Assembly (NCBI GenBank): GCA_003024175.1
Contig: MDYQ01000061.1
Location: 1-64,000 of the forward strand
Origin: Planoprotostelium fungivorum
Taxonomy: Eukaryota; Evosea; Variosea; Cavosteliida; Cavosteliaceae
DNA: 64,000 bases
Direction: 5' to 3'
Below, piece by piece: positions 4,025-61,700 of this stretch; the stretch's first letter is position 1; every line of letters starts with the position of its first letter. The translations under genes and the position numbers were made by a program. Below the pieces are notes generated by a model that searched no databases, was not told where the DNA came from, and was given only the letters and a program-made list of their open reading frames with translations.

Positions 4025-5683
<1,659 letters not shown>

Positions 5684-8583: not shown

Positions 8584-11500
8584 ATGAGAGGAATCCTTCT
8601 GTTCCTCTTGGCTATAACATCGATTGCACATGCACAACAAGAAGATCCAGCAGTAAGACACAGCCTGGAGAACTTCTTTAACATCACAGGAGGTAGTACT
8701 AATATCAATGAGGGTGGGGCGAACTGATCGGATATCAAATCTGAAAATGGAAGGATCATCATGGTGGTATAGTACCAACTGGACAACATCCAATAACTAT
8801 TGCACTTGGTTTGGGATCAATTGCACAGAAGGAATACTAAGTGGCATCTCTGTTCCGGACAATGGACTACATATGAGTGGGTTCCAAGCATGAAGTCCCA
8901 GCTGACTCTGGACAAAAGATATCGACGCCCTTCTGGCCATTGCAAATCTGACAACATTAGTCCATCTGGATCTATCGCAGCTCGACGGATTTCCACCTTC
9001 TCTGCCCGATCTCAGCTCTCTCACACAATTGGAATACTTGAACCTCGATTCTACCTCTGGACTCGAGAGCTTGGGTTCCAATCTACCACCAAATCTTCGA
9101 ACCATCATCCTATCCAACACCCAACTGAGTGATATCGACGCTATCTACTCTTTGGAACAACTCAATCATCTCGATCTCAGCTCATCTACACCATCATTCA
9201 CAATCGATAATCAGAGATTGCGTCGATTACCACTCGACACACTTCTTCTATCCCAGATGGGTCTCTCTGGCCACGTGCCACAGACGTGGCTCACCGTCAA
9301 AGAATTGAATCTAGATCGAAACATGATGTCATTGAATTCGCTACTGGTGATCGGAAACAAGCTCAATTGTTCCTTAGAGACCCTCTCCTTCCAATACAAC
9401 AACGATGAAGGTGATCATCACCATCTCGTCATCTCGAATTGTTCTTATGTCTACAGGTCCCCTGCCCGATCTGTCCATCTGCCCCAATCTGAAGACCCTC
9501 TTCCTCTCTAACAACCAATACAACGGTTCTCTCTCTTCTTCTTTCTTCGACTGCAACAGCCTGCAGGTGGATACCTCTCCGTGATGATCTCTGACGTTAG
9601 ACAGTACATGAACGTACAGGGTAACCTCTTGAGTCAATTGGGAGACATGTCGAGTTGTAGAGGGTTGACCACATGGGTGAGTGGATGGTTTTGACATCTC
9701 TGACGTCTCTTCAGAAGATGGAATCGAATCTATTCATCACGGAGCTGCCTGATATCTCTCGCATGACACTTCTCACCGAATTCTCCGCATCAAAAAATCA
9801 ATTTTACGGTACAGATTCATCATCCTCTCCCCTCACCGTCGACAGGAAAGATACCTGACATGTTCCACGACTTATCTCAATTGAACTGGCTGGACCTGTG
9901 AGTCACCATCACCTCTTCACATCACTGACATCATCATCACAGGAGGTCCAACCTTCTCAACGACTCGATACCCCCTTCCATATTTCACATTCCCTCTCTG
10001 CAGTACCTGTATCTATCGAAAAACGCGTGAGATTTCGTGATTGTGAGACTCGCTCACCGTCTCCAGTTTGTACGGAAAGATTCCGAGCTTCAAGAATGCC
10101 ACGGGATTGATTGAGATCGACGTGTCTTACAACGAACTAGAGGGAGAGGTGGATGTGATACCACCTTTTTTGCAGTATCTATGGTTACACTACAACGACC
10201 TCTCTGGAACACTGCCCACGCCCGTGTCGTCATTGATCGGCGTGGACGTCAGTTCGAATTCTTTCACCGGAAATATCCCGGGTGAGTCATGATGATCAAC
10301 CGTCATGATGGTATGATGGCCGTCTGACTCGATCAGATTTCACTTCAGCCGAATACCTTAGTTATTTTATGGCACCTGGGAATCACGTGAGAAGATCCAC
10401 ATCGAATGAATGATGATTCATTCAGTTGAACGGTTCGATCCCTTCCAATTGGCCCAAATTTCTATCCACGCTGAGATTAGACGGTGAAGATCTTTCATCT
10501 CTCATTCATTGATAATGAACAGGGAATCAATTGAGTGGAAACATTACCAGTCTCCCATCGAATTTACTATACATCGTGAGTCAATCGTCGATAGTCACCC
10601 ATCTGATGCGTGAGTAGAACGTAGACGATAACCAACTGACGGGTACTATCTCTGCAATAAGTAAAGCAACACACATTTCGTACATCTCTATGAGAAACAA
10701 CAAATTCTACGGGGACCTGGAGGTGATCTATTGTCCTCCACTCTTCACTCATTCGATTTACAGCCCCTTCGTTCCCTAGTTGGATTCAGAAGCTTACTCG
10801 GTTACGTCGGTGAGTGTGTCTACGTGCAAGTCAAGCGCGTTGAAAATTGTGGCAGATCTGAGCCAAAACGAATTGAAGGGAGACGTCTTCGAAGTGAAAT
10901 CGAAAGGATTCATCTTCAAGTGAGGATTGTCTTTGTGTGTAAGAGATGAACCATCTGCAGCGCTCAGAGGTTCTCGAGTCTGTACTATCTGAACATCTCT
11001 TACAACCAATTCGAAGGTGCCATATTCGGTCACCCTTATCCCATAGACGACAAGTACGTAACTCGAAATTTCACCCCTGACATCATCAGTGACTTCAGTT
11101 TTCCTCAACCGATCCGGGTGGTGGGTGAGCACAGTGACGTCGTCTCGGTCTGGGCTGACTCATTCCTTCAGATCTCTCACATAATCGCTTCTATGGAACA
11201 CCCTCCATCATCGAGAGGTACGAAGGGGGAAGACCTTTCTACGCACAGTGGGAGTCTCTGAATCTGTCTTCCAATCGATTGAGTGGGAGGGCAATCGAGG
11301 CCATCTTGTCTCTGAGCTATCTGAATCTATTGGATCTGAGCGACAACAACATCGGGGGTATCATGTCCCCTGCCATCGCCACCTTGGAGTTCTTGCAGGA
11401 GTTACGTCTCAGGTACGTGTGGTGATGACGTGTACATTGAGATGTCACAGTAACATGAGCCTGATGGGTAGAATCCCTTATTCAGCTCTGCAGAGATTGA

Positions 11501-14500
11501 CCGATCTACAAGTGAGACACCCAAAGTCATCTTGAGCTCGTGTCATGACAGATGAACCAGGTGTTGGATCTACACGATAATCAATTGGAGAGTGCAGATC
11601 TGTCGTGGCTGAATCGAATGGGTTCACTGGAGAGCATCGATCTGAGTGGGAATCAGATCAGATCGAGATTACCCCCCGTCACTCAACTCAGCCAACTCTC
11701 AAAGTTGGATTTGAATCGCAATTTTCTCTCGGGAAACATCTCCGACGACTATTGTAGATTGAGTCGATTATCTTATCTCGGGTGGGTTCTGGTTCGTTGT
11801 AGATGACCAGAATGACTCGTTGTAGACTGTCGCACAACCGGTTATCGGGTTCTGTTTGTACCTTCTCGGGGGATCTGACGCATCTGGGTGATCTGATGAT
11901 ATCATGGCAAACTCTTCCTGATGTCTTGCAGACCTGTCAGATAATTCCTTCAATGGAGATGTATCGTTCATCTCTGTTCTGTCATCCCTTCAATACCTCG
12001 ACCTCTCTTCCAATTCATTCAGCGGACAGGTGAGAGAGATACGATTCATCAATCGATCTATATAGAATCCTCTACGACGCTGATCTCTCACAGTTTCCAC
12101 GGTTAGACAGACTCGCGAGACTCCAATCAGCCAACATGAGGTGAATGAATGATATCTCTCTGTACAGATGAATGAATCGAGAACAGTTATAATTCACTGG
12201 AAGGGACGTTACCACCACTCAATGGACTCATCAACATGGTTTCCCTCGGTGAGTTCATTGATTCAAAATGAAAAAATTCATCCTCTCAGATCTGTCTCAC
12301 AATCGACTGATGAAGTCGATACCCAGTTTAGACAGTGACATCAATCTGAAGTGAGAACTCATTCATTCGACCCGTCTGACTCGTTGTAGTGCCATCAATT
12401 TCAGTTACAACATGTTCTCGGATGCAGAGACATTCATCCTACCCACGAACGATACCTATTGTGACATGACAGGTGAAACTCTTCACGTGTCAACCATTCA
12501 CTGAAGGTGATAGGTAACACCTTCGAGTGTCCCATCAGTGATGATGCGAGAAACAGATGTAAAGCAGTGTGTAGAGCCACCAATCTGATGGAAGAGACGA
12601 TCAGCATCAAGATGGACGGAGACCTATCCGTTTTCGATTCAGAAAAGTGAGTTCGCCTCATGACATCGTGACTAGACGTGTTGATATCATCACGATCTTC
12701 GGTGATGTCACGGATGTGATCTGATGATATCACAGGTTCTTACGTGCTCTGTCCCAGGTCCTGAATTGTGATAGCGATCGATTTCAGATCTTAAATCTGC
12801 GAAGCGGATCTGTCATCGTCGATCTGAACATCCACCCTCCGTCCAACATCAGGTGATCCTCCCTCCCTCTCTGTATCTAAAAATAGAACCACAGCCGAGA
12901 CCCCTCCGCCGTGGTGCTCGGCAGTAAGATGTACACCGATGCCTTTCGATTGGAGATGCAGAGTGAAGGGTACAACATAACTCTGGTCAACGAAGAGATA
13001 CCCTCACCACCCTCCTTGAGTGGACCCAACGTGGCACTCATCGTGGGTTTGACGGTAGGACTGACAGCCCTGTGTGTCATCGTTGCACTCTTTGTCCTAT
13101 CAAGGAGGAGGAAACCCGGGAAGATGTACGATCAGTTGATGTTGGTGGATATGTCCAAGATCAATCTGGACCCCATCAAGGAATCAGTCATTCCATCAAA
13201 GGTGAGAGGGATGTATTCATCGGCGATTGATCATGGTGCAGGAGATCACAGACATGGCACTGGTGAGTCACACGAGAATTTTCTCATCCTCATCTGCCGA
13301 TTTGATCTCATTTGATCTCATTTGATCTCATTTGATCTCATTTGATCTCATTTGATCTCATTTGATCTCATTTGATCTCATTTGATCTCATTTGATCTCA
13401 TTTGATCTCCTACTGATACATCTACAGATCGGATCGGGAGCGTGAGTGACACATGGATGTGATGGAATTCAATTCAAGTTTGACAGGTTCGGATTGGTCT
13501 ATTCTGCCAACTGGAGGAACATCAATGTTGCCGTGAAACAGATCAGAGCTGAGCTGTGTGACAGCCAGCAGGTGACCAACTTCCTGAGAGAGGTGGCCAT
13601 TCTACAACACCTCAGACCTCATCCAAACGTGGTCTTGTGTGAGTCATCGTGGTTCAAATGGATCATTGCGTTGATTTTGTGAACAGTCATGGGAATCACT
13701 CTACCTCCAGAACCTCTGTCTCTCGTCACGTGAGGTTTCGTACGTACGTTACGTAGGTCTGACATGTCCTAGGGAATACTGTGGGGGTGGTTCACTCTTC
13801 CGGTGAGAATGAGAGACAAAGTGGAGACTGAAGATAAATCTACAGATACATTCGTGATGCAACAGAGGTGGATGATGTTCGCAGAAAGAAATTCATCACC
13901 CAGATCGGTACGTACATTCATTTCGTTCGTTATACATCCTATTCATTCTACATTCGATTCATTCTATCACACATCATTCACTTCTCGTGACATCATTCCA
14001 GCCCAAGGAATGCTCCATCTACACTTGGAGAGGATCATACACAGAGACTTGGCCATACGAAACGTGAGACAGAAACAACGATGAATCTCACACTTGTAGA
14101 TCCTCCTCACCCACCACGGTGATGCCAAGGTGGCCGATTTCGGGCTGTCGAGAGAACAAGATGAGTCGGAGGGTCCAGCCCAAGTGACAGCCACTTCGGT
14201 GGGGCCTGTTCGGTGGATGGCACCAGAGGGTGAGATGAATGGATGAGATGCGATGGTTGATGTGTGACAGCCATCAAACTGAGACAGTACTCCACCAAGA
14301 GTGACGGTGAGGTGAAACGTTTCCATGGAGAGTGACTCGTTGTAGTGTGGTCGTTCGGTGTACTCATCTGGGAGATGGTGGCGGTGAAAGATCCATATCC
14401 AGACAAGACCACCATGGAGGTGACTCTCATTCCCATTTCCATTCACAGACGTCACCACCACTCAATGGACTCATCAACTGAACAGGTGGCCATCGGTGTC

Positions 14501-14838
14501 AGCTCAGGATCACTCAGGCTAGATATACCGGAAGACACCGATCCCCTCCTGGCTGAATTGATGACCGGTGATCATCTACAACGCGCCATAACTGACGCCC
14601 CTCAGATTGTTGGCAGACGGATCCTCAGCTGCGTCCCAATTTCCGTCGCATCTGTGAGACATTGGGAGTGGACACGAGGGGAGATGTGTCGAGGGAAGAG
14701 AGGAGCACAGACAGTCCCACAGCACATAATGAACACGTCGGTTCCATCACATCAGAGCAAGCGGGGTACGTGGGGGCCTCTGCGGTCTCTGTCGATTTTG
14801 GAGAGAACTCGTACGAGGCAGAGACGGAGGGATTGTAA
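8584..14838 (+). CDS. LRR receptor kinase, single-pass membrane, with tyrosine-kinase-like signatures
   Basis: Signal peptide MRGILLFLLAITSIAHAQ, then an N-terminal cap like that of plant LRR receptors (CTWFGINC), then many leucine-rich repeats spread over about 20 short exons (LDLSSS, LYLSKN, LTGTIS, IDLSGNQI, LSHNRLSGSV). The transmembrane segment is VALIVGLTVGLTALCVIVAL (about 13040-13100), followed by a basic stop-transfer RRRK. The kinase domain shows GSGAFGLVYSANW, VAVKQI, EYCGGGSLRY, HRDLAIRN, DFGLSRE, PVRWMAPE and DVWSFGVLIWEM, so all catalytic residues are present. The tail ends NSYEAETEGL. HRDLAxRN and PVRWMAPE are typical of tyrosine kinases, whereas amoebozoan LRR kinases usually fall in the TKL group; both remain possible. 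A 10-base minisatellite sits in the intron just before the glycine loop. It converges on the small charged gene 87 bases downstream. Confidence 0.88.
13301..13410 (+). repeat. Minisatellite, eleven copies of TTTGATCTCA, inside a receptor-kinase intron
   Basis: Eleven head-to-tail copies of the 10-base unit TTTGATCTCA, ten perfect and the last ending in C. They lie wholly in the intron between the juxtamembrane exon and the exon encoding the kinase glycine-rich loop. The copies are identical, so the array is probably young or kept uniform by slippage. Confidence 0.97.
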
Positions 14839-14839
14839 A

Positions 14840-14913
14840 ACTGTAAGAAGAGAAAGAGAAGAAAAGAGAAGAACGAAGAAAGAGAAGAGAAGGGAAAGAG
14901 AAGAAGAGAAATA
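14840..14913 (+). repeat. Homopurine tract between two convergent genes
   Basis: About 70 bases of almost pure A and G (repeating AGAGAAGA-like units, with one C) fill most of the 87-base gap between the LRR receptor kinase stop and the stop of the next minus-strand gene. Such tracts can form triplex DNA and slow polymerases. Here it lies where two opposing transcripts end. Confidence 0.7.
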
Positions 14914-31933: not shown

Positions 31934-34900
31934 CTAATGGAAAAAGTACTTGCTCTTCTGCACTTCTCTCAAGTCCAAATCTCCCTTCTCTGGCAGCGGT
32001 GGAAACTCGACCTCAGGATAAGCCTTGTGGAACTCTTGTAATAGATTTTCGAGCAGCGGTGACGAGTGTAGATCGATAAACTTTTCTCTCAATATCTCGT
32101 TCATGCGAGGGACGGTAGAGGCGTGCGTCCAGTACGAATCGTGAACGGATGCAAAGGTGAGGTCCTGCTTCTTCATCTCCAAGGCAGTCATGAGCATGTG
32201 GCTCGAGTCGAGAGAGTGGATGTAGTTGGGAGGGAAGGCTGACTTCTGTCGGGCGACGTTCACCGACCTCTGCTCCATCTTCTTTAAATCGACCACCTGC
32301 ACCGTCGTGACCACTTGTTCCTTCGCCGTGATCTTCTTGTACGGTTGGATGACAAACAGTCCGGTCGGTGTCGTCCACGTGACGTCCTTCCCTGCCACGG
32401 CGATCTTCTTCGCAGCGACGGCGAGCCAGTCCATCAGCGTCTGTGCTCCCAAGAAGATCTCGCCGAGAGAGGCGAAGACGTGTCGCGTGAGGTAGGCGGC
32501 GCAGGGGAAGATCAACTTTTCGTCTTGGAGGAATTTGAGGTCCTCGAGTTGGCCGGCGATCTGGCGGATGGCACCAGTGAAGGTGACACCGTAGACGCTG
32601 GTCATGACCGTCTGCTTGACGACCTTACGGGTGATGTGACCGCGGACGAGGGTGGCGTACTTGTCGCCGGAGGCGTAGTCCTCTTCGACGCGTTGCTTGA
32701 CGAGATCCATGACTCCGGAGTAGACGTCCTGGTGGGGTCAGGGTGGGTGTCTCATGAGAGGGAAGACATGATCGTGATGATGATGACGATGTCCAAAAAA
32801 AGATGATGACTTTCATCACGATCATGATGTCAACGATCATGATGGCGGAGTGATGATCACCTGTGGACGATCTGATGGAAGAAGGTTGACGTGTTTCGCT
32901 CCCAAAACATCTCCTCCGAGTGCGGCGTAATGCTGCAGACCGTTACACGTTCCGTCCTGGTGAACGGGCAGATGTGACACGTAGCTGCTCGGATCTCCAC
33001 TGTCTATGGCATCGAACATCTCCTTCGATGCCGCCAAAAACTGCCAGGGTGAATCTGCCTTCAGCCACCACCTACTGCCGTCAGCCACAGAATATCTCCC
33101 CTGCAGCTCGAACGTCTCACCGATCGCCATCGAGCGGATTTTCAACCGAGGCACGGATCTTGTCCATGTTCTTGTCTACAAATTGGATTCTCTCCGAGAA
33201 GGGAATCTTGTCCATGCCGTAGAGATTAGCGAGGTGGATCTTGATCCAGTCGAGGCCTTCTTCACCCAGTGGTTTACCCTCTGCGAAGAGCATGAGAGAA
33301 CGACACATGTCATTGCCGAGGTGGTTCAAGTGTGGTGGAATGGGATAAGCTCTTCCTCTGAAATCGAGATTGTGCGGGAAGTAAATGACATCGTCGGCAA
33401 ACTTGTTGGCCACCTTCTTCTCGTCAGCCCATGTGATCACGATCATCATCATGATCATCACCCCCAATTTGTAATTGACGTCAGCTCTTCTCCCCATGAG
33501 ATCGTGATTGTCACTCAGAGCCTTCCTGTACTCTCTCTTCCACTCGCTCAGCTGCATTGGCGTTCCCTTCTGTGGCTTCGTCGGCAGCGGCAGATCCACC
33601 ATGGTCGGCAGCTCTCCGATGCTGCCCCCCCTGTCGATGGCATCTTGGATGATGTCCCTCATTCGATTGTTGATCCTCCACGGTGTCTCGGACAGAGCGT
33701 TGAGTGATTCGAAGAGAGTCTGCAGTTGGTAAGGATCTCTCGCATTGATGAGCTGCAGCTCGTTGATCTGCTTGTAGTAGCCGCGGCTGCGAACGAGATC
33801 GGTGGATATGGTGAGATAGCCTCCTCTGCGTGGGCTAGTCCAGGGACGTGGTGGAACCACCATCGGAAAATGTCTCGCCTGAACAAATCCCATCAAGCTC
33901 TTGTGACTGGTGATGCCGTCGCGGATCTAGATGAGTGAGCTGTCTGTACACCTGTGACACTCCACCTCAGGTGACAGTCTGACGACCGTGTGTTGTTTAC
34001 CACCACCGACGGCGATCTTGACTCTTTCGAATGCGGGTGAGATGCCATCGGCTGCCGTGGCGTTGTTGAGAACGGCATCGAGCAGAACAGATCCGTAGAG
34101 TTGCTTCAGTTTCGTGTTGAGGGGGGCCATCTTGAGATCGAGGACGACACGATTGAGACCGCCGAGATGGATGGCATTGAGAATGCGCTTGTGATGATCG
34201 GGGTCGTTGACTCGGAGAGTTTGGATGCTGAGTTCGGCTCTGCACGTCTCTTGGAGGTAATGTGTGATGCTGTGAGAGGTGACATCTTCACCGGCGAGGG
34301 TTCTAGAGAGGACGACGTGCATGGCGATGACGGACAGTTTTTCCACGGAGAGGATGACTCCCAGATCGGCGAGCTCTTCTCCATCCAGATTCATCTTCTT
34401 CTGTTCCTCCAAGATGCCCTGTTTGATGGAGGAGTACCAGCGACTGAGGAGGGTCTTTCCGTATGCCAAGTGACTTCCTCTCCCCAGACGAGCCATCTCT
34501 TCTGATAATGTCTGATACTCTTTGGCAGAGTCTTCCACCGCTTCTTCTTCAAATTTTCTCTGTCTCTCAAAGTTGTGTGGGTCGATGTTGGCGTATATGC
34601 CATCCGTTGGATAATCAGGGACAGTGTGAGTTGTCTTTGCAATCTCCGTGAAGGACAACGGGTTCTCTTGTCCTTCATAGTCATCGACTGGGGAATCGAT
34701 GGAGGTACGCAGTTGGTCGATGTCGACTCGTGGAGGTAATGATCGATCAGGGCCCACTCTGATCCTCTTGTGTTCTGCAGGACTCCAGAATTCAAACTCG
34801 GCTAGCGCATCGTGGTCCACCTGCTGGAGAGGCTTGATGCTGTGTGAAAATCCTCTGCTCAAAGACGGCTGTGGACGAGGAATTCTTATGTTATGTGGCT

Positions 34901-34934
34901 TAGTTACCAAGAGACGTCTGGCTGAGAGTAACAT
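31934..34934 (-). CDS. POLRMT: Mitochondrial DNA-directed RNA polymerase (T7-like, POLRMT/RPO41)
   Basis: Single-subunit polymerase that transcribes mitochondrial DNA. The N-terminus [20 protein letters not shown] is a typical presequence; ATGs 24 bases further up are also in frame. The N-terminal extension is followed by the T7-like core: [40 protein letters not shown] (template-binding), [33 protein letters not shown] (catalytic Asp, motif A), [19 protein letters not shown] (motif B, finger Lys and Tyr), [20 protein letters not shown] and [14 protein letters not shown] (catalytic Asp, motif C), ending VQKSKYFFH. Both metal-binding aspartates are present. Introns are few compared with neighbours, and the main exons are unusually long. 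Confidence 0.96.
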
Positions 34935-35180
34935 GGTTCTGTCAGACATCAGCATCATGATTGTGATTAACTCTTATCATGTTTCATCTGCATGAAGAGC
35001 CACTCACAACTCTATACAGTTGAACCAATATGATACTCTGCAGGATAATGACGACTGTGGTCAATGTGATGGTTCTCAGCCTTTTCATTTTTTTTCTTTA
35101 CCTGAGGTTGATTGTAGATGATCATTCCGAGATCCTGTGAAGATTGTCAGAAATCAAAACCTTCGGGTCCATCAGCAACC

Positions 35181-51803: not shown

Positions 51804-53788
51804 ATGGCATCCACCGCGACATCAGACGGAGAACTCGGCTTCGTTTCATCAGGAAAATCTCTCCCCTATTGGTACGAACCCAAGGGCAAGCCCATGATCC
51901 ACGACAAGTGAGGCACCCGCCAAACACCCTCCATCTCATTCGCACATTAGATTTCCCACCCTGGAGGCCGATACCACTGCCGACGTCACCATCATCGGTG
52001 GAGGTATCGCAGGTGTCACCGCCGCTTATCTCCTTGCATCCGCCGGCAAGTCCGTCATCCTCTTAGAAGATGGCCTCCTTGCATCCGGTGAATCAGGTAG
52101 AACGACCGGCCACGTCTTCAACGGTCTCGACGACCGTTACTCCGCCATCGAAAAGTCCTTCAAGAAGGAAGGATCCAAATTGGTCGCTCGATCTCTGACC
52201 GAGGCGATCCAAACGATGGAAGACATCATCAAGAAGGAGAACATCGATTGTGACTGGGTCAGACTTCCCGGCTACCTCTTCATCGGCGGCGATTGGACAG
52301 AGAAAGATCTGAAGCAGGAGTACCAAGGTGGAATTTCGAGCGGGAGAATTGAATTTTAAACTTTCAATAGCGGCACTGGACGCGGGAATCGACGTGACCA
52401 TGTTGGACACTGCCCCAGATTTCAACAGCGGACCTGCCATCTTGTTCCCCAAACAAGGTCAAATCCACATCACAAAGGTGATCATCCCCTCACGTTCATC
52501 ATCCCCACGATGATGCTCACTTTAGACAGTACATTCAAGGTCTCGCCGACGCCGCCGTCAACAAGGGAGCCAAGATCTACACCCGCACCCACGTCAAGCA
52601 GATCGTAGGCAAGGAGGGACAAGTCGTCACTCTCAACGACAAGAAGGTCACATCCAAGCACATCATCCAAGCCACCAACGTACCCATCAACGACGTCGTC
52701 ACGATGTGGACAAAGATGAAGGGCTACCGCACCTACGCACTCTCTGCCAAAGTACCGAAGGGCTCTGTCAGTCTGTCACTGTGGTGGGACACCATGGACC
52801 CTTACAACTAGTGAGTTCGAATTTGCACGTTCAACGTTCACTGATATGGATAGCGTTCGCATCAACAAGGGAACAGACGACAGTCATGATGTCATCATTG
52901 TGGGAGGGCAAGATCATCCAGTTGGAACTCAGTTCAACACGGAAGAGAGATACGATAATCTGTACAAGTGGTTGAAGGAGAGATTTCCACAGACGGGAGA
53001 GATCATCAACAAGTGGAGCGGACAAGTGACTGAGGTGAGGTAGAGGAAGAGAAGAGGGGACTGAAGGGAGACAGCCGTTCGATGGATTACCCTTCATCGG
53101 TCAGAACCCCGGCGATGCCGAAGGAGTCCTCATCATCACCGGAGGTGCGACATCACATCACATGAATCACATCCATCATCATCATCACATAACTCTCAAC
53201 TTCTCACACATGTTCTGACTCCTCTAGACAGTGGAATGGGTATGACCAACGCCACTCTCGGCGCCATGATCAACACCGACATCATCTTGGGAAAGTCTAA
53301 CCCTTACGCCGACATCTACTCTCCATCGAGACAGACCATCACCCACAGCTTCAAAGAAACTGTAATGGAGAACATCGAGACTCAGTCCCAATATTTAGAC
53401 TGGGTCAGACCCGGACAAGTGTCAGGTGGGTCACGTGATCGTTTCAATCGATTGAATCGTTGTAGATATCGAGGACATCCAACCAGGATGTGGCGCCATC
53501 ATCAGGAAGGGACTGAAGCCTGTTGCGGTTTACCGTGACGAGGCTGGACAAGTCCACACCCGTACGGCCGTATGCCCCCACTTGGGTGCCATCGTTCAAT
53601 GGTGATCATCATCATCATCGTCTTCTCGATCGTCATCATCATCATCGTCTGTCGATTGGATGCTGAATGAAATTAGGAACGACGCAGAGAAGTCATGGGA
53701 CTGCCCCGCCCACGGCTCTCGCTTCAACGCCAAGGGAGCTCCCATCTGCGGACCCGCCATCAACCCCCTCGCCGAAGTCAAAGTATAA
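51804..53788 (+). CDS. FAD-dependent oxidoreductase fused to a Rieske [2Fe-2S] domain
   Basis: The start is [20 protein letters not shown]. The Rossmann FAD site is [20 protein letters not shown] (glycines at GGGIAG), followed by the DAO-fold blocks [20 protein letters not shown] and [20 protein letters not shown] second half has [20 protein letters not shown] and [13 protein letters not shown]. The C-terminal Rieske cluster motifs are CPHLGAIV and [12 protein letters not shown], giving CxH and CxxH, and the protein ends INPLAEVKV. This domain order matches bacterial YhfW-type proteins and fungal relatives. No targeting sequence is visible. The substrate is unknown; an amine or amino acid is typical of the DAO fold. 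Eight or so short introns show it is a settled nuclear gene, even if its origin may be bacterial. Confidence 0.92.
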
Positions 53789-53815: not shown

Positions 53816-56800
53816 TCATTGCATGTAGACGGAGTCCAGTTGTGTCTGCTCGAAGGTCATGAGCGATTTCTCGCGTGATTCGATGGTGGAGTGTAGCTCG
53901 CTCAGACTCGGCCTCTTGTCCCTTGTGTCGGTGCATCTCGTGATGGCTTGTGCCAACTTAGAGTCCGTTCCTTCTTTGACGGTGAAGATGATGTTCTCTT
54001 GGTTCGTGTGTGTAGTGTATAAGTGGTGATTGCCCGTGACCATTGTCCACAGCAACACGCCGACGCTATACACGTGTCCGCTATCGTTGTATCGTCTCTC
54101 TTTCAATATCTCTGGCGCCTGGAATTCTCTTCAGATACACAATCACCCATTGGCTCACCGTGGAAAGTTCATTACTCTGACTTTCGTAAGGTGAATCTTG
54201 TTGGACGATGGAAGAGAGACATTGGAGCTTCACATCTAATGTCTTTTCTCCCGTGATGAAGATCTACTGCTATTCAGTCTCTCGTAACATGCTGTTGGGA
54301 TCACCTTATGTGGAACGACATTGTTGTGGTACATTCCCATCGATGCGATGTAAGATAGTGCTCCAGTCACACCCCTGCCTCTGTTCTCTCGTCATTTTCT
54401 CTGATTCTTCCGATCTACTCACATGACCAACATCGTATCCACGCTCAGATCAGAATACACAGACAGATAATTGTCTAAACTAAGGCCCGTCATCCATTCC
54501 ATCACGATGTAATTCTCTACATCATTTCAGTTTAGCCATCTAGTGTACTCTTCACCTCTCGCATCACAGCCTAGATATTGTACGATATTTGGATGATGTA
54601 ATCTCTGTATGTACTCAGAAGTTACCACACACTCTCTATATCACCTTGAGGATTTCCATCTCTCTTGTAACATCTATGCTAGATGTGAATTTCTTCACTG
54701 CCACACTTGTCATTCCCTTGTACGTGCCCTTCCAAACTTCTCCCCGTTTTCTTTGTGCAATCTTCTCATCGAAAGTGATTCCCTCGATATCCAGCACGAT
54801 CAATCTCACATCTTCCCCTACCTCATCGGCAAGATCAGCCACATGATGACTCATCACAACAACATCTCACCATCCTTTGTCTGTGGGTTCGAGAGTAGAT
54901 GACCAGCGATAAGATGACAACGAGGACAAGGCCGCCACCGACACAGCAGACCACGATGATGATCAGGATCGTGTGGCTCGTCGATTTCGGTGCTTCGGCT
55001 ATTGGTTGCATGGCGATGGAGAAATTGGTCAAGTGATTACTCTGACAGACGGTCACGTTGGCGTCTACAACGAGGCTGATACCATCCCTCGACCAGGAAA
55101 GTGAAGATTCGTTCCAGTATTGACATACGGCTTCTGTTTCATAATTATTCTTCTCTATAGACAATCATCGCGGATGATGTGATGATGAGATCACGACGGA
55201 TGACGACGATGAGATCGAGACGGATGATCATGAGATCATGAAGTGGGGATTCTCACCATAACCCGGAAGAGTTTCGATGAAACCCATCGAAATGTTGATC
55301 AGCTCTTTCGTCCCCTTCAGCTCGATCTCACGTCTATCTGCAAACAGACTCACACCGATCACATCACTATATCTGTCTCACTGTTATCATCATCTCTCGA
55401 ACATTCTCTCACATCGTCTCGTTCGTGATCGATGAGAACGGATTAAACGCAAGAGAAGATAGTGCCACCGATACTATGATCGCGTCATTTTTAAAGTGTG
55501 GAATGCACTTGCACTCACTTGTCTTTGCGTTCAAACCGAGAATTGACACTGGAATCACTACACTCACGCTGCGATTTACGATGTCACTCGTGACACTCTG
55601 TCCAACGAGTGAGTTTGTGTCGAAAGTCTCCAGCTTGACGGATGCGATGGGTGAATTGTAGTCGTAGGTGGACGTGTTGCGCAGTAGAGCGAGGATGACA
55701 GCCGATATGGTTTTGGCCGTCTACAACGATCATTCAGCGACTATTCTTCGTCTTCACCTCACCACATCACGGTTGTTCAATGCATCATTGATGATGATCT
55801 GTCTCTCCTTCAATCTCCTCTCTCTTCTCTTCCTCTCACCTTCGCTTCGTCCGCTGATATCTTCGTCTCGTTGTCGTACAGTGGTGCGATATCACAGGGC
55901 TGATAATCCAAAATGCAGGTGGGTGTAACATTCAGCAGAGGAAAACAGGGGAAGAGGTTGTGGCTTAAATCGCAGTATCTTTCCACGTTGATGTATCCCA
56001 CTGATGTGAAGTTGTTATCGTTCAGATAGAGCTCTTGTAGAGGAGTGCCTGCACTCCTTCCCGAGACGCTTCCGTTCAATTGATTGTTGTTCAACTGTAA
56101 GACGCTCAACTTCGGTAGATTGACGAGCCCATCCATGAAGTTGACCGCACAATTCGTTCCTACATGAGTCGTCATTCAAATCACACATCGAATGAAAGAG
56201 AGACTGACCTGTCACCAATTGATTGTTCTGGAGTTTAATCTGCACGAGAGACGTAAGGTTGACCATAGCGCAGGGTATAGCTCCAGACAATCGATTATCG
56301 TACAGATGGAGGAGTTGAAGTGATGTGAGACTCGTGATGCTGGGAGGAATGGGACCGTACAGCAGGTTGCGTTGAAGTGCCAGAGTGGAGAGTGACTTGA
56401 GCTGACCGATGGTAGAAGGTATGCTTCCTCCGAATCTGTTGTTCGAGAGATCAAGATTCACAAGAGACATGAGGTCCCTGGTGAAAGACATAGTCCCGTT
56501 CAGGCTGTTTTTGTTGAGCAAGAGGCTTTTGAGCGTACTGGGCAGAGCAGGGACATCACCCGCCAGGTTGTTGCTATAGAGGCTGAGGGTCTGGAGAGGC
56601 AGCTGACCGATAGAGGAGGGTATAGTTCCGTTGAGTGAATTCTCGGCGAGGAAGAGGCGAACGAGACTGCTCATGTTTCCCATCAGGATGGGAATGCTAC
56701 CGGTCAATTGATTAGCAGAGATGGTGAGATTCACGAGGGACGTGAGGTTACAGATGGTAGCGGGGATGGAGCCTGAGAGGAAATTGTGGCGGAGAATCAG

Positions 56801-57402
56801 ATATTGGAGTCGTTTGAGACCACCGATGGAAGAGGGTAAGGATCCGTTCAAGTTATTGTAAGAGAGATCGAGGTGTTGAAGGGAGGTGAGATTACCGATC
56901 GAATCAGGGATGGATCCAGTCAGGTTGTTGTGAGAGAGATCCAAGCGCGTCAGGTTGATGAGGTTTCCGATGGAAGGAGATAGGGTGCCTTTGTAGCTCC
57001 ATTTGGGAAGACAGATGCTGGTTGGCCAAGATCCGGAAGGATTACAGTTTGAGATAGAACCACAGGGGGCTACTGACTTCAATGTTTCGCAGAACTGAAA
57101 GAGAATCAGCCGTCTGATTTCATTGTGCAGATGGATGTATTGGAGGTCAGTGGAGATCTTTGTGCTCAAATGGATCGAATATCGCAATCTATGCAACAAA
57201 ACTCTGTATGTTTGGAATGACTCACATTGCCTGATGTTGCCACTATTCACACTCAGAATGATCTCTCTTTCCAGCTCTTCTCACCTCCTAGATTTTTCCA
57301 GAAGTCATTCAAAGAATCGGTGATCACATCACCCGCACAGTTGTGTGATACTAAGAGAAGCAGAGAAAGGATGATTTGGATGGACGTGCGTGGACTTGGC
57401 AT
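53816..57402 (-). CDS. LRR receptor with GPS motif, transmembrane segment and cytoplasmic pseudokinase
   Basis: Signal peptide TSIQIILSLLLLVSHNCAG, then plant-style LRRs on one long exon (GTLSPSIGNLINLTRLDLS, NLTGSIPDSIGNL, NNLNGSLPSSIGGL and so on). Near the membrane CQYWNESSLSWSRDG and CQSNHLTNFSI form a GPS motif with the HLT cleavage triplet. The membrane segment is IVVCCVGGGLVLVVILSLVI, followed by RTHRQR. The kinase-like domain keeps the beta-3 lysine (VAVKKF), an EME-containing helix C, and APEILKERRYN. The HRD loop reads HNNVVPHKIFI and the DFG site reads NFP, only about four residues before the APE. So catalytic Asp, metal Asp and nearly the whole activation segment are missing, and it should be inactive. 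It ends FEQTQLDSVYMQ. It converges on the FAD/Rieske gene with 27 bases between stops. Confidence 0.82.
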
Positions 57403-58740: not shown

Positions 58741-61700
58741 CTATTGCGTTCTTCTCGTCTTCTTGAAGTCCCTGTTCAACTGTGTCGTTCCTTCCAACTT
58801 GTACAGTCTCTTCTTCGTGTTCTTGACCTTCTCTGCCTCCAGCGCGTCCTCCTTTGCCTTCTTCTTCTTGTACTCTTCCTTCTCCTTCTTCTCCTTCTCT
58901 TGCACCTTCGCATGCTGCATGACGTCAGCACCATCATCACCATCATGTGTCGCATCATGGTGCTTGTCCTCACCCTCTCTCTCGCCAAGAAGTTAAGAGT
59001 CTTCAGAGCTTCCTTCACTTTCTTTTCTTCTGGCTCGAGGACGACCTTCCTCTTGATGTCGAGCTTCTTCTTCCTCTGGTCTAATCTCTGGATCTTATTC
59101 TCCATCAAGGTGGCACGGATGGCCCAGGGTGTCTTATCTCTCAATTTGGAAGGGACTTGTAATGGTTTCACCACCATGCTCTATTGTAAATCGTTAATTG
59201 TTATTTCAATGGAGAATCAACTCTTGTATCGATTTACATGTAGTGAAGAGAGAGAGGATGTCGTTGTAGATGGATGAGATACTCACGGGTCTCTCTTCTA
59301 CGGGGGCGTAATTCGAATCTGGCTTCTGAGGGATGGCTATGTCTCTCTCGATTCGGAGGAGTCTCACTGTCTTCATTCCTGTTGTATTCCATCAGTCATC
59401 ATGTCAAAGACGTGCATGATGATGATCATCATCATGATGGTGATGGTGTATAGACATACCCTTCCAGTTCTCGTCTAGTAGAGATGTCACGGGATTGTAC
59501 AGTCTCTTTGCTTCCACTGGATACCAAGTGCGAAGGAAGACGATGTCACTCATGAGAACTCTGTCCTCAAAGGTGGCACGGAAAGACCCGGCGGGTTTCT
59601 ACAACGAGTCATTTCTCCATCTACAACGATCGGATCTATTTTTAGCTCACCGCCAATGCCCTCTTGATGATACCTCTGATACCCGATACCGTTCGAATAC
59701 CGGCACCCTCGAACTTGGCCACCTATTTAAAGATCAGATGTCAATCTACAACGAGCCATTACGATTCACCTCGAGGGCGGAGGTGAACATGTTCTGAACG
59801 TAAACTGTCTTCTTGAAAGAGGCGGCAGGTGTTCCCACCAATTTCAATTTCTTTACCACCTTGAACGATTGATTCTGCTCCAAAATAACACCAGTGGCGC
59901 TGACTCTGAATCCAGTCTGTGCACAATGAGTTTCACCGCGTGAGAAAAAAAGATGAAAAATCTTCGCGTTCTACAACGATGTAGATGGATGACTCACGGA
60001 TAGATCGTCTAACGACTGGAAGGCTGCGAAACCAGAATTGGAAGGTGTGATGGGAGCAAATATCGTTGCGATACAATGCATGTGCTCGGGTGTATACTTC
60101 AACATCCTACCCCTACCGTTACTGTCCTCCATGGAGTACAAGGGCATCGTCTGAAATCTGCGACGCGTCACGATGACGTCACGTGACGTCACTCACCTCC
60201 TCCAACCCAGAGAGAAGATGAGAGGGTCGTTACTCTTGAGAATCTTTCTCGCCCAACGGTGCTTCTTGATTCTACACTGAAGGAAACCGATTGCATCTTC
60301 TCCCATCAATAGACCTCCCAGCAGCATCGGTCGGTGTGGTGAAAAGTTCTTGATGAATTCCATAGGGAGCTGAGTCGGTGAGATTTCTGAGAAATTTTCG
60401 AGAATATTCTCGGAAAGTTTCTTCACCTTTTCGATGAGAATCCTGACGTAGTAGCCGGGTCTGAATCCCTCGTACATGGCTCTTGTTTCTGCGTCTTCTC
60501 CTGCGAATTCGAGCGCGGCCTCTTTCGCTTTCGTTTCCATGTTGCTCTTCATACTCGAAAAGAAATCTCCCTCTTCTTCCTCTTCTTCTTCATCGTACTT
60601 GTTGTCGAACCTGTGAAGAATGAGGAAGGTGATCGAAGAGAGGATGTCACTTGTTCTTCTGGTCGATCTTCTTTTGTTTGAAAGATTCGTCTTCTTCTTT
60701 CTTCATCGTTTCAGAGGACTTGTGTTTCTCTCCACTCTCTAGATCCTCAAAGTCACCGTAGACCTAAAGAAGAGTGAGAAATAGAATGAAATAGAATGAA
60801 ATAGAATGAAACGAAATAGAATGAAATATAATGAATGGAATAGAATGAAATCGTTTGTCTCTCTTTACCTCGTCGTCCTTCAATCTGGGTCGGTTGACAT
60901 TGTCTGCTGATGGATCCATGGAAACGAAACGGTGTGCCAAGCTGTTGATCACCTGCTTCCTCATCAGCATTCACTCCACATCACAATCAGATGATCATCG
61001 TTACAACGTTATATCATCTTCACCTCTTCATCGAACCAATCTGTGCCCTGTTTCCCATCTTCGTGGCTGAAAAACTTTGAAGAATCGATCGAGTCGAGGC
61101 CTTCTTCTCCATCCCTCCTCTTCTTCAGCTGGAACAACTCGTCGTCATCGTCCTCCTTGTCTGTTGGATTTTCAGCTGAAGTCTCGGCCCGAGCTGTCAC
61201 CTTCTTCCTTCTTGGTCGACTCGTTGTAGACGAGCTCCATCAGCGTAGTCTGCTTTTCGAACGCGCTGGCGGCTCTCTCCACCATACCTTCCTTCCATCT
61301 TGCGATGTCTCTCTTTCCTTCCTCTTCTTCTTCCTCCTCTTCTTCCTCCATGTCATCGGCTCCATCATCATCATCATCGAGTCCGAGCTCTTTCCTCTGC
61401 TTCAGTTGCTTCTCGAGGAGTTTGACTTCGTCTGTCTCTTCTTCTTCATCGTACACCACGTCTCCGTTCGTGCTCTTGTCCTCCTCATCATCCTTGAACT
61501 TCATTGGATTGGGTGCCTTTCTCCTGCTCCTTCCATCTGCAGTCACGACGATATCTTCTCCCTCTTCTTCCTCATCATCATCATCATCTTGTCCATCATC
61601 ATCATCATCGTCTTCATCGTCCATGTCTTCTCCCTCCTCTTCTTCTTCTTCTTCCATGAACTTGTTCGATAGGGGTGCACTTCCTTTGAACAGCCTGAGT

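Follow-up and report, generated by a model that had tools for sequence, protein, structure and literature searches.

The question raised by this locus is whether a receptor with leucine-rich repeats (LRRs) and a kinase-like domain carries a genuine GPS motif just outside the membrane and, if so, whether the protein would cut itself there and to what end. The window, i.e., the whole stretch of DNA that was analysed, comprises 64,000 nucleotides of Planoprotostelium fungivorum contig MDYQ01000061.1. A sequence-only reading of this DNA had proposed a GPS motif with the cleavage triplet HL/T immediately before the membrane segment, in a protein with the order LRR, GPS, single membrane helix and pseudokinase.

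The receptor gene lies on the minus strand (57402-53816) and was assembled by hand from the three-frame translation. The spliced model comprises 13 exons encoding a 901-residue protein, has a single open frame of 902 codons with the TGA stop counted in, and contains 12 introns of 39-181 nt, all with GT-AG ends. The encoded protein starts with a signal-peptide-like sequence, followed by LRRs, the GPS motif, one membrane helix, and a kinase-like domain. The features of the gene, in plain terms, are the following.

57285..57402, minus strand: exon 1, start codon and signal-peptide-like N-terminus, aa 1-39
57226..57242, minus strand: exon 2, a 17-nt mini exon, chosen because it links exon 1 in frame to the LRR exon
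56209..57094, minus strand: exon 3, main LRR exon, aa 46-340
55840..56159, minus strand: exon 4, the final LRRs with the cysteine-containing stretch that closes the LRR part, aa 341-447
55519..55720, minus strand: exon 5, candidate upstream GAIN-like part, assigned by position and strand-like pattern only, aa 448-514
55257..55337, minus strand: exon 6, candidate upstream GAIN-like part, aa 515-541
54871..55154, minus strand: exon 7, GPS motif and membrane helix, aa 542-636
55065..55073, minus strand: acceptor-like motif, a copy of TCGTTGTAG inside the GPS exon 7
55027..55035, minus strand: predicted cleavage triplet H582-L583/T584, of the H-X-S/T form
54895..54969, minus strand: single membrane helix, aa 604-628, hydropathy maximum 3.3
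53816..54821, minus strand: exons 8-13, introns included, juxtamembrane stretch and kinase-like domain, aa 637-901
54305..54328, minus strand: degenerate catalytic loop HNNVVPHK in place of HRDxxxxN, from alignments with ABL1 and with a second receptor of the window
54210..54230, minus strand: degenerate DFG region KLQCLSS, with DFG aligned to LQC in the same alignments

Splice sites were picked by their GT-AG ends and an unbroken frame, and since these were the selection criteria themselves, their occurrence in the model is a consistency check and not independent proof of it. The model is least certain at exons 1 and 2, i.e., at the N-terminus with its hydrophobic stretch IQIILSLLLLV, judged signal-peptide-like by eye, and at the mini exon. 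Among the splice sites of exons 8-13, the purine-rich acceptor of exon 8 (GATGAG) appeared by eye to be the weakest. Pfam analysis of the whole spliced protein detected the LRR families LRR_8 (E 4.9e-24) and LRR_1 (E 1e-22) together with GPS and PK_Tyr_Ser-Thr, all in one protein and in the order LRR, GPS, kinase. It was considered whether the LRR exons and the GPS-kinase exons could belong to two neighbouring genes, or whether exon 7 could have been mis-joined. The manual choice of sites, the uncertain N-terminal mini exon and the acceptor-like TCGTTGTAG inside exon 7 leave room for such an artefact, but no intron between the LRR, GPS and kinase exons exceeds 181 nt, and their phases match, which makes two separate genes unlikely. 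Moreover, a second region on the plus strand also has LRRs followed by a membrane helix and a kinase, its LRR and kinase parts having been read separately. An artefact of splicing is therefore judged quite improbable.

Other genes in the window include a single-subunit phage-type RNA polymerase, probably mitochondrial (31937-34973, minus strand; PF00940 E 4.6e-97, with RPOL_N upstream), a glyceraldehyde-3-phosphate dehydrogenase with its N- and C-terminal domains in separate ORFs (4025-5362, minus strand), and an FAD-dependent oxidoreductase (51898-53788, plus strand; DAO E 2.5e-20), the last exons of which appear by eye to encode a Rieske-type-like domain (CPHLG ... CPAHGSRF).

In exon 7 the motif is laid out as C552-Q-Y-W555 ... 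W562 ... G566-I ... C578-Q-S-N-H582-L583-T584-N-F-S-I, after which the membrane helix follows. The HMM search of the spliced protein that had been proposed as a check of the motif returned the Pfam GPS family (PF01825) at aa 551-588, covering profile positions 2-44 of 45 with an E-value of 5.7e-10 and a score of 40 bits against a curated cut-off of 22.5, and the contiguous exon 7 alone was matched with an E-value of 6.6e-11. The top sequence relative of the GPS region in the PDB was the adhesion GPCR ADGRF1 (7wu3; phmmer E 6.7e-05), with 18 identities over 47 query residues in an alignment that extends across the cleavage triplet into the following strand (SNHLTNFSIAMQPI against CTHLTSFSILMSPF). 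All 11 matches listed in this search up to E 1 were adhesion GPCRs, two of them with E < 0.001. A scan of the six frames of the window for the pattern CxxW...W...C...HLT, which is blind to a GPS split by an intron, gave a single match, the exon 7 site, and the pattern was encountered in one out of 100 block-shuffled windows. When the last part of the motif was used alone, this looser pattern had one further match (55504-55524, plus strand), which is preceded by three stop codons within 40 residues. A chance motif was rejected on basis of the Pfam match and the scan of shuffled windows. The GPS motif in the exon at 55154-54871 is real, and its position directly before the membrane segment and its HL/T triplet, as originally read, are confirmed by the PF01825 match, the ADGRF1 alignment and the location of the site in exon 7.

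The consensus positions that are kept include C552, Y554, W555, W562, G566, C578, H582, L583, T584, F586, and I588. Two of the four consensus cysteines are absent, a departure that the sequence-only reading had not mentioned; they are replaced by I567 after G566 (GC to GI) and by S580 in the CxC element (CQS). The GPS of adhesion GPCRs has four cysteines that form two bridges, the first pairing with the third and the second with the fourth. Only C552 and C578 are present here, and the two-disulfide arrangement of adhesion GPCRs is thus lacking; on the pairing given above, one whole bridge would be lost and the other one kept, as expected of a folded domain. In human polycystin-1, which we take to be cut at HL/T3049, C3043 presumably lies six residues before the threonine, the same spacing as for C578 in this receptor. 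Cleavage of polycystin-1 is reported to occur with only one disulfide, C3015-C3043 (PMC4810088, where the triplet is numbered by mouse PC1), so two disulfides are not required of every GPS protein. Nevertheless, the cysteine that is lost after the conserved glycine is the one at position S12.50, the bridge of which is described as present in all human adhesion GPCR GAIN domains (PMC13062082), and its loss counts against cleavage. In LAT-1, a GPS cysteine change equivalent to GPR56 C497S is reported to have blocked surface expression (PMC3776922).

The H-X-S/T triplet is reported to be insufficient for cleavage, for which an aromatic residue at S10.49, orienting the histidine, and a glycine before S12.50 also matter (PMC13062082). 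According to the same source, ADGRL1 with the change F803Y was fully competent for cleavage in the full-length receptor, whereas the purified ectodomain with this change was cleaved slowly, with a half-life of several days (PMC13062082). By alignment, Y554 corresponds to the S10.49 aromatic and G566 to the glycine before S12.50, both of which favour cleavage. Position S10.49 was placed at the third residue of C-x-F-W, here Y554, by means of the F803-H836 spacing given in PMC13062082 together with the ADGRL1 sequence.

These features bear on the alternative that the receptor stays uncleaved, in which case the GPS would be a structural joint between the LRRs and the membrane, with cleavage lost or very slow, and the pseudokinase would act as an intact co-receptor. 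The missing disulfide would fit such a protein, as would the report that ADGRB2, which bears HLS, is cleaved so inefficiently that its half-life is about 100 days (PMC13062082), from which it follows that the triplet alone proves nothing; some adhesion GPCRs are moreover described as signalling without cleavage (PMC13062082). On the other hand, the alignment shows the histidine and threonine retained together with the aromatic Y554 and with G566, cleavage of PC1 occurs although it has a single disulfide (PMC4810088), and loss of cleavage would presumably relax the selection that maintains the triplet. An uncleaved receptor is considered rather unlikely, and self-cleavage at L583/T584 is judged somewhat more likely than not.

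A second alternative concerns the acceptor-like TCGTTGTAG in exon 7. The window contains 16 copies of TCGTTGTAG against 0.41 expected, corresponding to an over-representation of about 40 times, and in the two spliced models a copy serves as acceptor, at 55721-55729 (minus strand) in intron 4 of the receptor and at 14337-14345 (plus strand) in the second receptor. If exon 6 were joined to the acceptor at 55065, aa 542-571 would be removed in frame, i.e., 30 residues forming the first half of the GPS and including C552, W555, W562, and G566, and the frame would stay open to the end, giving a protein of 871 residues. Part of the transcripts could in this way encode an uncleavable isoform. Judged by eye from their context, further copies often mark intron ends, in some cases with two in one intron. 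However, others fall within introns, within exons, or on the opposite strand from a gene, so the motif is not a marker of acceptors alone; furthermore, its coincidence with the GPS exon was spotted after the fact. Such a splice switch is thus regarded as very improbable. The motif itself may represent either a 3' splice site in extended form or the end of a mobile intron; further places at which it occurs are, for example, 53457-53465 (plus strand) and 59599-59607 (minus strand).

GAIN domains consist of a helical subdomain A and a subdomain B, a beta-sandwich of 12-14 strands that ends in the GPS. In the receptor, the interval between the LRRs and the GPS measures about 120 residues (roughly aa 430-550). 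For this part, Pfam analysis of aa 403-551 up to E 10 detected no family, GAIN helical subdomain A included, and a phmmer search of aa 434-551 against the PDB up to E 10 gave no match. Structure prediction by AlphaFold for exon 7 alone, run with no alignment, had a mean pLDDT of 65.7 with the membrane helix as its sole confident part, and for this low-confidence model Foldseek found no PDB matches at E 0.001 or better, an outcome that was given no weight in either direction. As GAIN domains are reported to share low sequence identity and to have a variable helical part of 2 to 6 helices (PMC11697300), the lack of a match upstream does not decide the fold, and a GAIN-like beta domain around the GPS is proposed.

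On the cytoplasmic side, the spliced protein matches PK_Tyr_Ser-Thr at aa 651-879 (E 5.9e-26). The alignments with ABL1 and the second receptor reveal that GxGxxG is reduced to AQRKRG and that HNN and LQC stand at the places of HRD and DFG; the VAVK lysine (K679) and the helix C glutamate (E690) are kept. Because the HRD and DFG aspartates are lost, the domain is, as judged by these residues, a TKL/TK-like pseudokinase that is predicted to be catalytically dead, and a reading as active receptor kinase was rejected on the same alignments. The order of LRRs, one membrane helix and kinase domain that characterizes LRR receptor kinases is present, and the layout originally proposed, with the GPS between LRRs and helix and with a pseudokinase, is borne out by the spliced model, the Pfam families and the lost catalytic residues.

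The probable second LRR receptor kinase gene, located on the plus strand at about 8584-14840 (limits approximate), contains many short introns. It has an LRR exon followed by the membrane helix and kinase exons, of which the model was spliced by hand from 12737 on. The kinase of this partial model is intact (GSGAFG, HRDLAIRN, DFG; PK_Tyr_Ser-Thr E 9.4e-60), and the 84-residue stretch before its membrane helix, which contains GSVIVDLNI, matched no Pfam family up to E 1. Tandem ATTTGATCTC repeats occur inside an intron of this partial model (13300-13409, plus strand). Purely by inference, this apparently active receptor illustrates the kind of partner that the pseudokinase might have.

Taken as a whole, we slightly favour a single gene encoding a type-I receptor with an LRR ectodomain, a GPS within a GAIN-like beta domain, one helix, and a pseudokinase, which cuts itself and signals through a partner. 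In this mechanism, the domain would most likely cut itself once, between L583 and T584, early in the secretory pathway, leaving a fragment of about 60 kDa, consisting of the LRRs and most of the GAIN-like domain, that would be held non-covalently to a fragment of about 36 kDa, consisting of the last strand, the membrane helix, and the pseudokinase. Glycans apart, the larger predicted fragment has 559 residues (60 kDa, if the signal peptide is 24 residues long) and the smaller one 318 (36 kDa). The two associated fragments would travel to the surface, where the chances that the receptor indeed resides as two fragments appear evenly balanced. Ligand binding to the LRR part, or pulling on it, could then release or rearrange that part, and this in turn could alter the pairing of the pseudokinase with an active partner kinase and thereby generate a signal; signalling through a partner kinase is put forward tentatively. 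TNFSIAM, the strand that follows the cut, is similar to the tethered agonist of adhesion GPCRs, which reads TSFSILM in ADGRF1. Because the receptor has neither a seven-helix bundle nor a 7TM pocket in which the peptide could bind, it is less likely than a GPCR to work by a tethered agonist, and TNFSIAM is read as the structural last strand of the domain.

With adhesion GPCRs such as ADGRF1 and ADGRL1 the receptor shares HL/T, the aromatic and glycine determinants, the hydrophobic strand after the cut and the position of the GPS just outside the membrane, as well as the LRRs, which are listed among the extra domains of adhesion GPCRs (PMC12716839). In contrast to these receptors, it crosses the membrane with a single helix where they have seven, carries a pseudokinase in place of their G-protein-coupling bundle, and has one disulfide where they have two; no GAIN subdomain A is detectable by sequence. 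Downstream of the GPS comes the strongest hydrophobic segment and then the kinase-like domain, and no 7tm family was found in the Pfam scan up to E 1, the seven-helix hallmark of adhesion GPCRs thus being absent. Polycystin-1 has extracellular LRRs, as has this receptor, and, by PC1 numbering, presumably keeps the same GPS cysteine pair. The cleaved GPS with a single disulfide in polycystin-1 (PMC4810088) likewise has its counterpart in the single-disulfide GPS found here; however, polycystin-1 and PKD1-like proteins do not share the kinase-like tail, and the Pfam scan up to E 1 contained no REJ, PLAT, or multi-pass channel-like family that would mark a PKD1-like protein.

The signal-peptide-like start, LRRs, one membrane helix, and a TKL/TK-like kinase domain are also the elements of plant and protist LRR receptor(-like) kinases, which are reported to occur outside land plants as well (PMC3268121, PMC13091385). 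Unlike these, the present protein has a GPS between LRRs and membrane and a catalytically dead kinase, and the word 'GPS' is absent from the main text of both surveys (PMC3268121, PMC13091385). A cytoplasmic kinase domain on a receptor is also known from the GPCR-TKL/K and GPCR-TK fusions of choanoflagellates and relatives, but those have seven membrane helices, and no GAIN on a single-pass kinase was met in the account of GPCR-kinase fusions in PMC12716839. Apart from adhesion GPCRs, a 2025 paper knows GAIN from PKD1-like proteins only (PMC11697300). Among the literature matches listed, no title or abstract start mentioned GPS or GAIN on a single-pass kinase, and unpublished cases may exist among the architectures in protein databases. 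GPS and LRR receptor kinases are both known, and their joining on a single-pass pseudokinase is undescribed in the literature listed. Searches with exon 7 (94 aa) gave 18 pattern stretches in viral_contigs and 105 in genome_contigs (bacteria and archaea), with zero confirmed relatives in either, which is weak evidence of rarity since viral and prokaryotic collections are poor places to look for a eukaryotic receptor.

It is possible, though doubtful, that the protein represents a third class of GAIN-type receptors next to adhesion GPCRs and PKD1-like proteins, namely a self-cleaved, two-fragment, single-pass receptor pseudokinase of a protist in which the GPS is a release joint, maybe with splice-switched cleavability. 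If true, the GPS would be a fuse at which the LRR part detaches, and would not supply a tethered agonist to a seven-helix bundle. GAIN/GPS self-cleavage has mostly been studied in proteins whose freed strand has a seven-helix bundle or a polycystin to act on (PMC11697300, PMC13062082, PMC4810088), and a GPS on a single-pass pseudokinase would separate cleavage itself, as a breakable joint, in shedding or in quality control, from tethered agonism. Finally, it would show that the GPS module has been reused beyond adhesion GPCRs and PKD1-like proteins (cf. PMC11697300).
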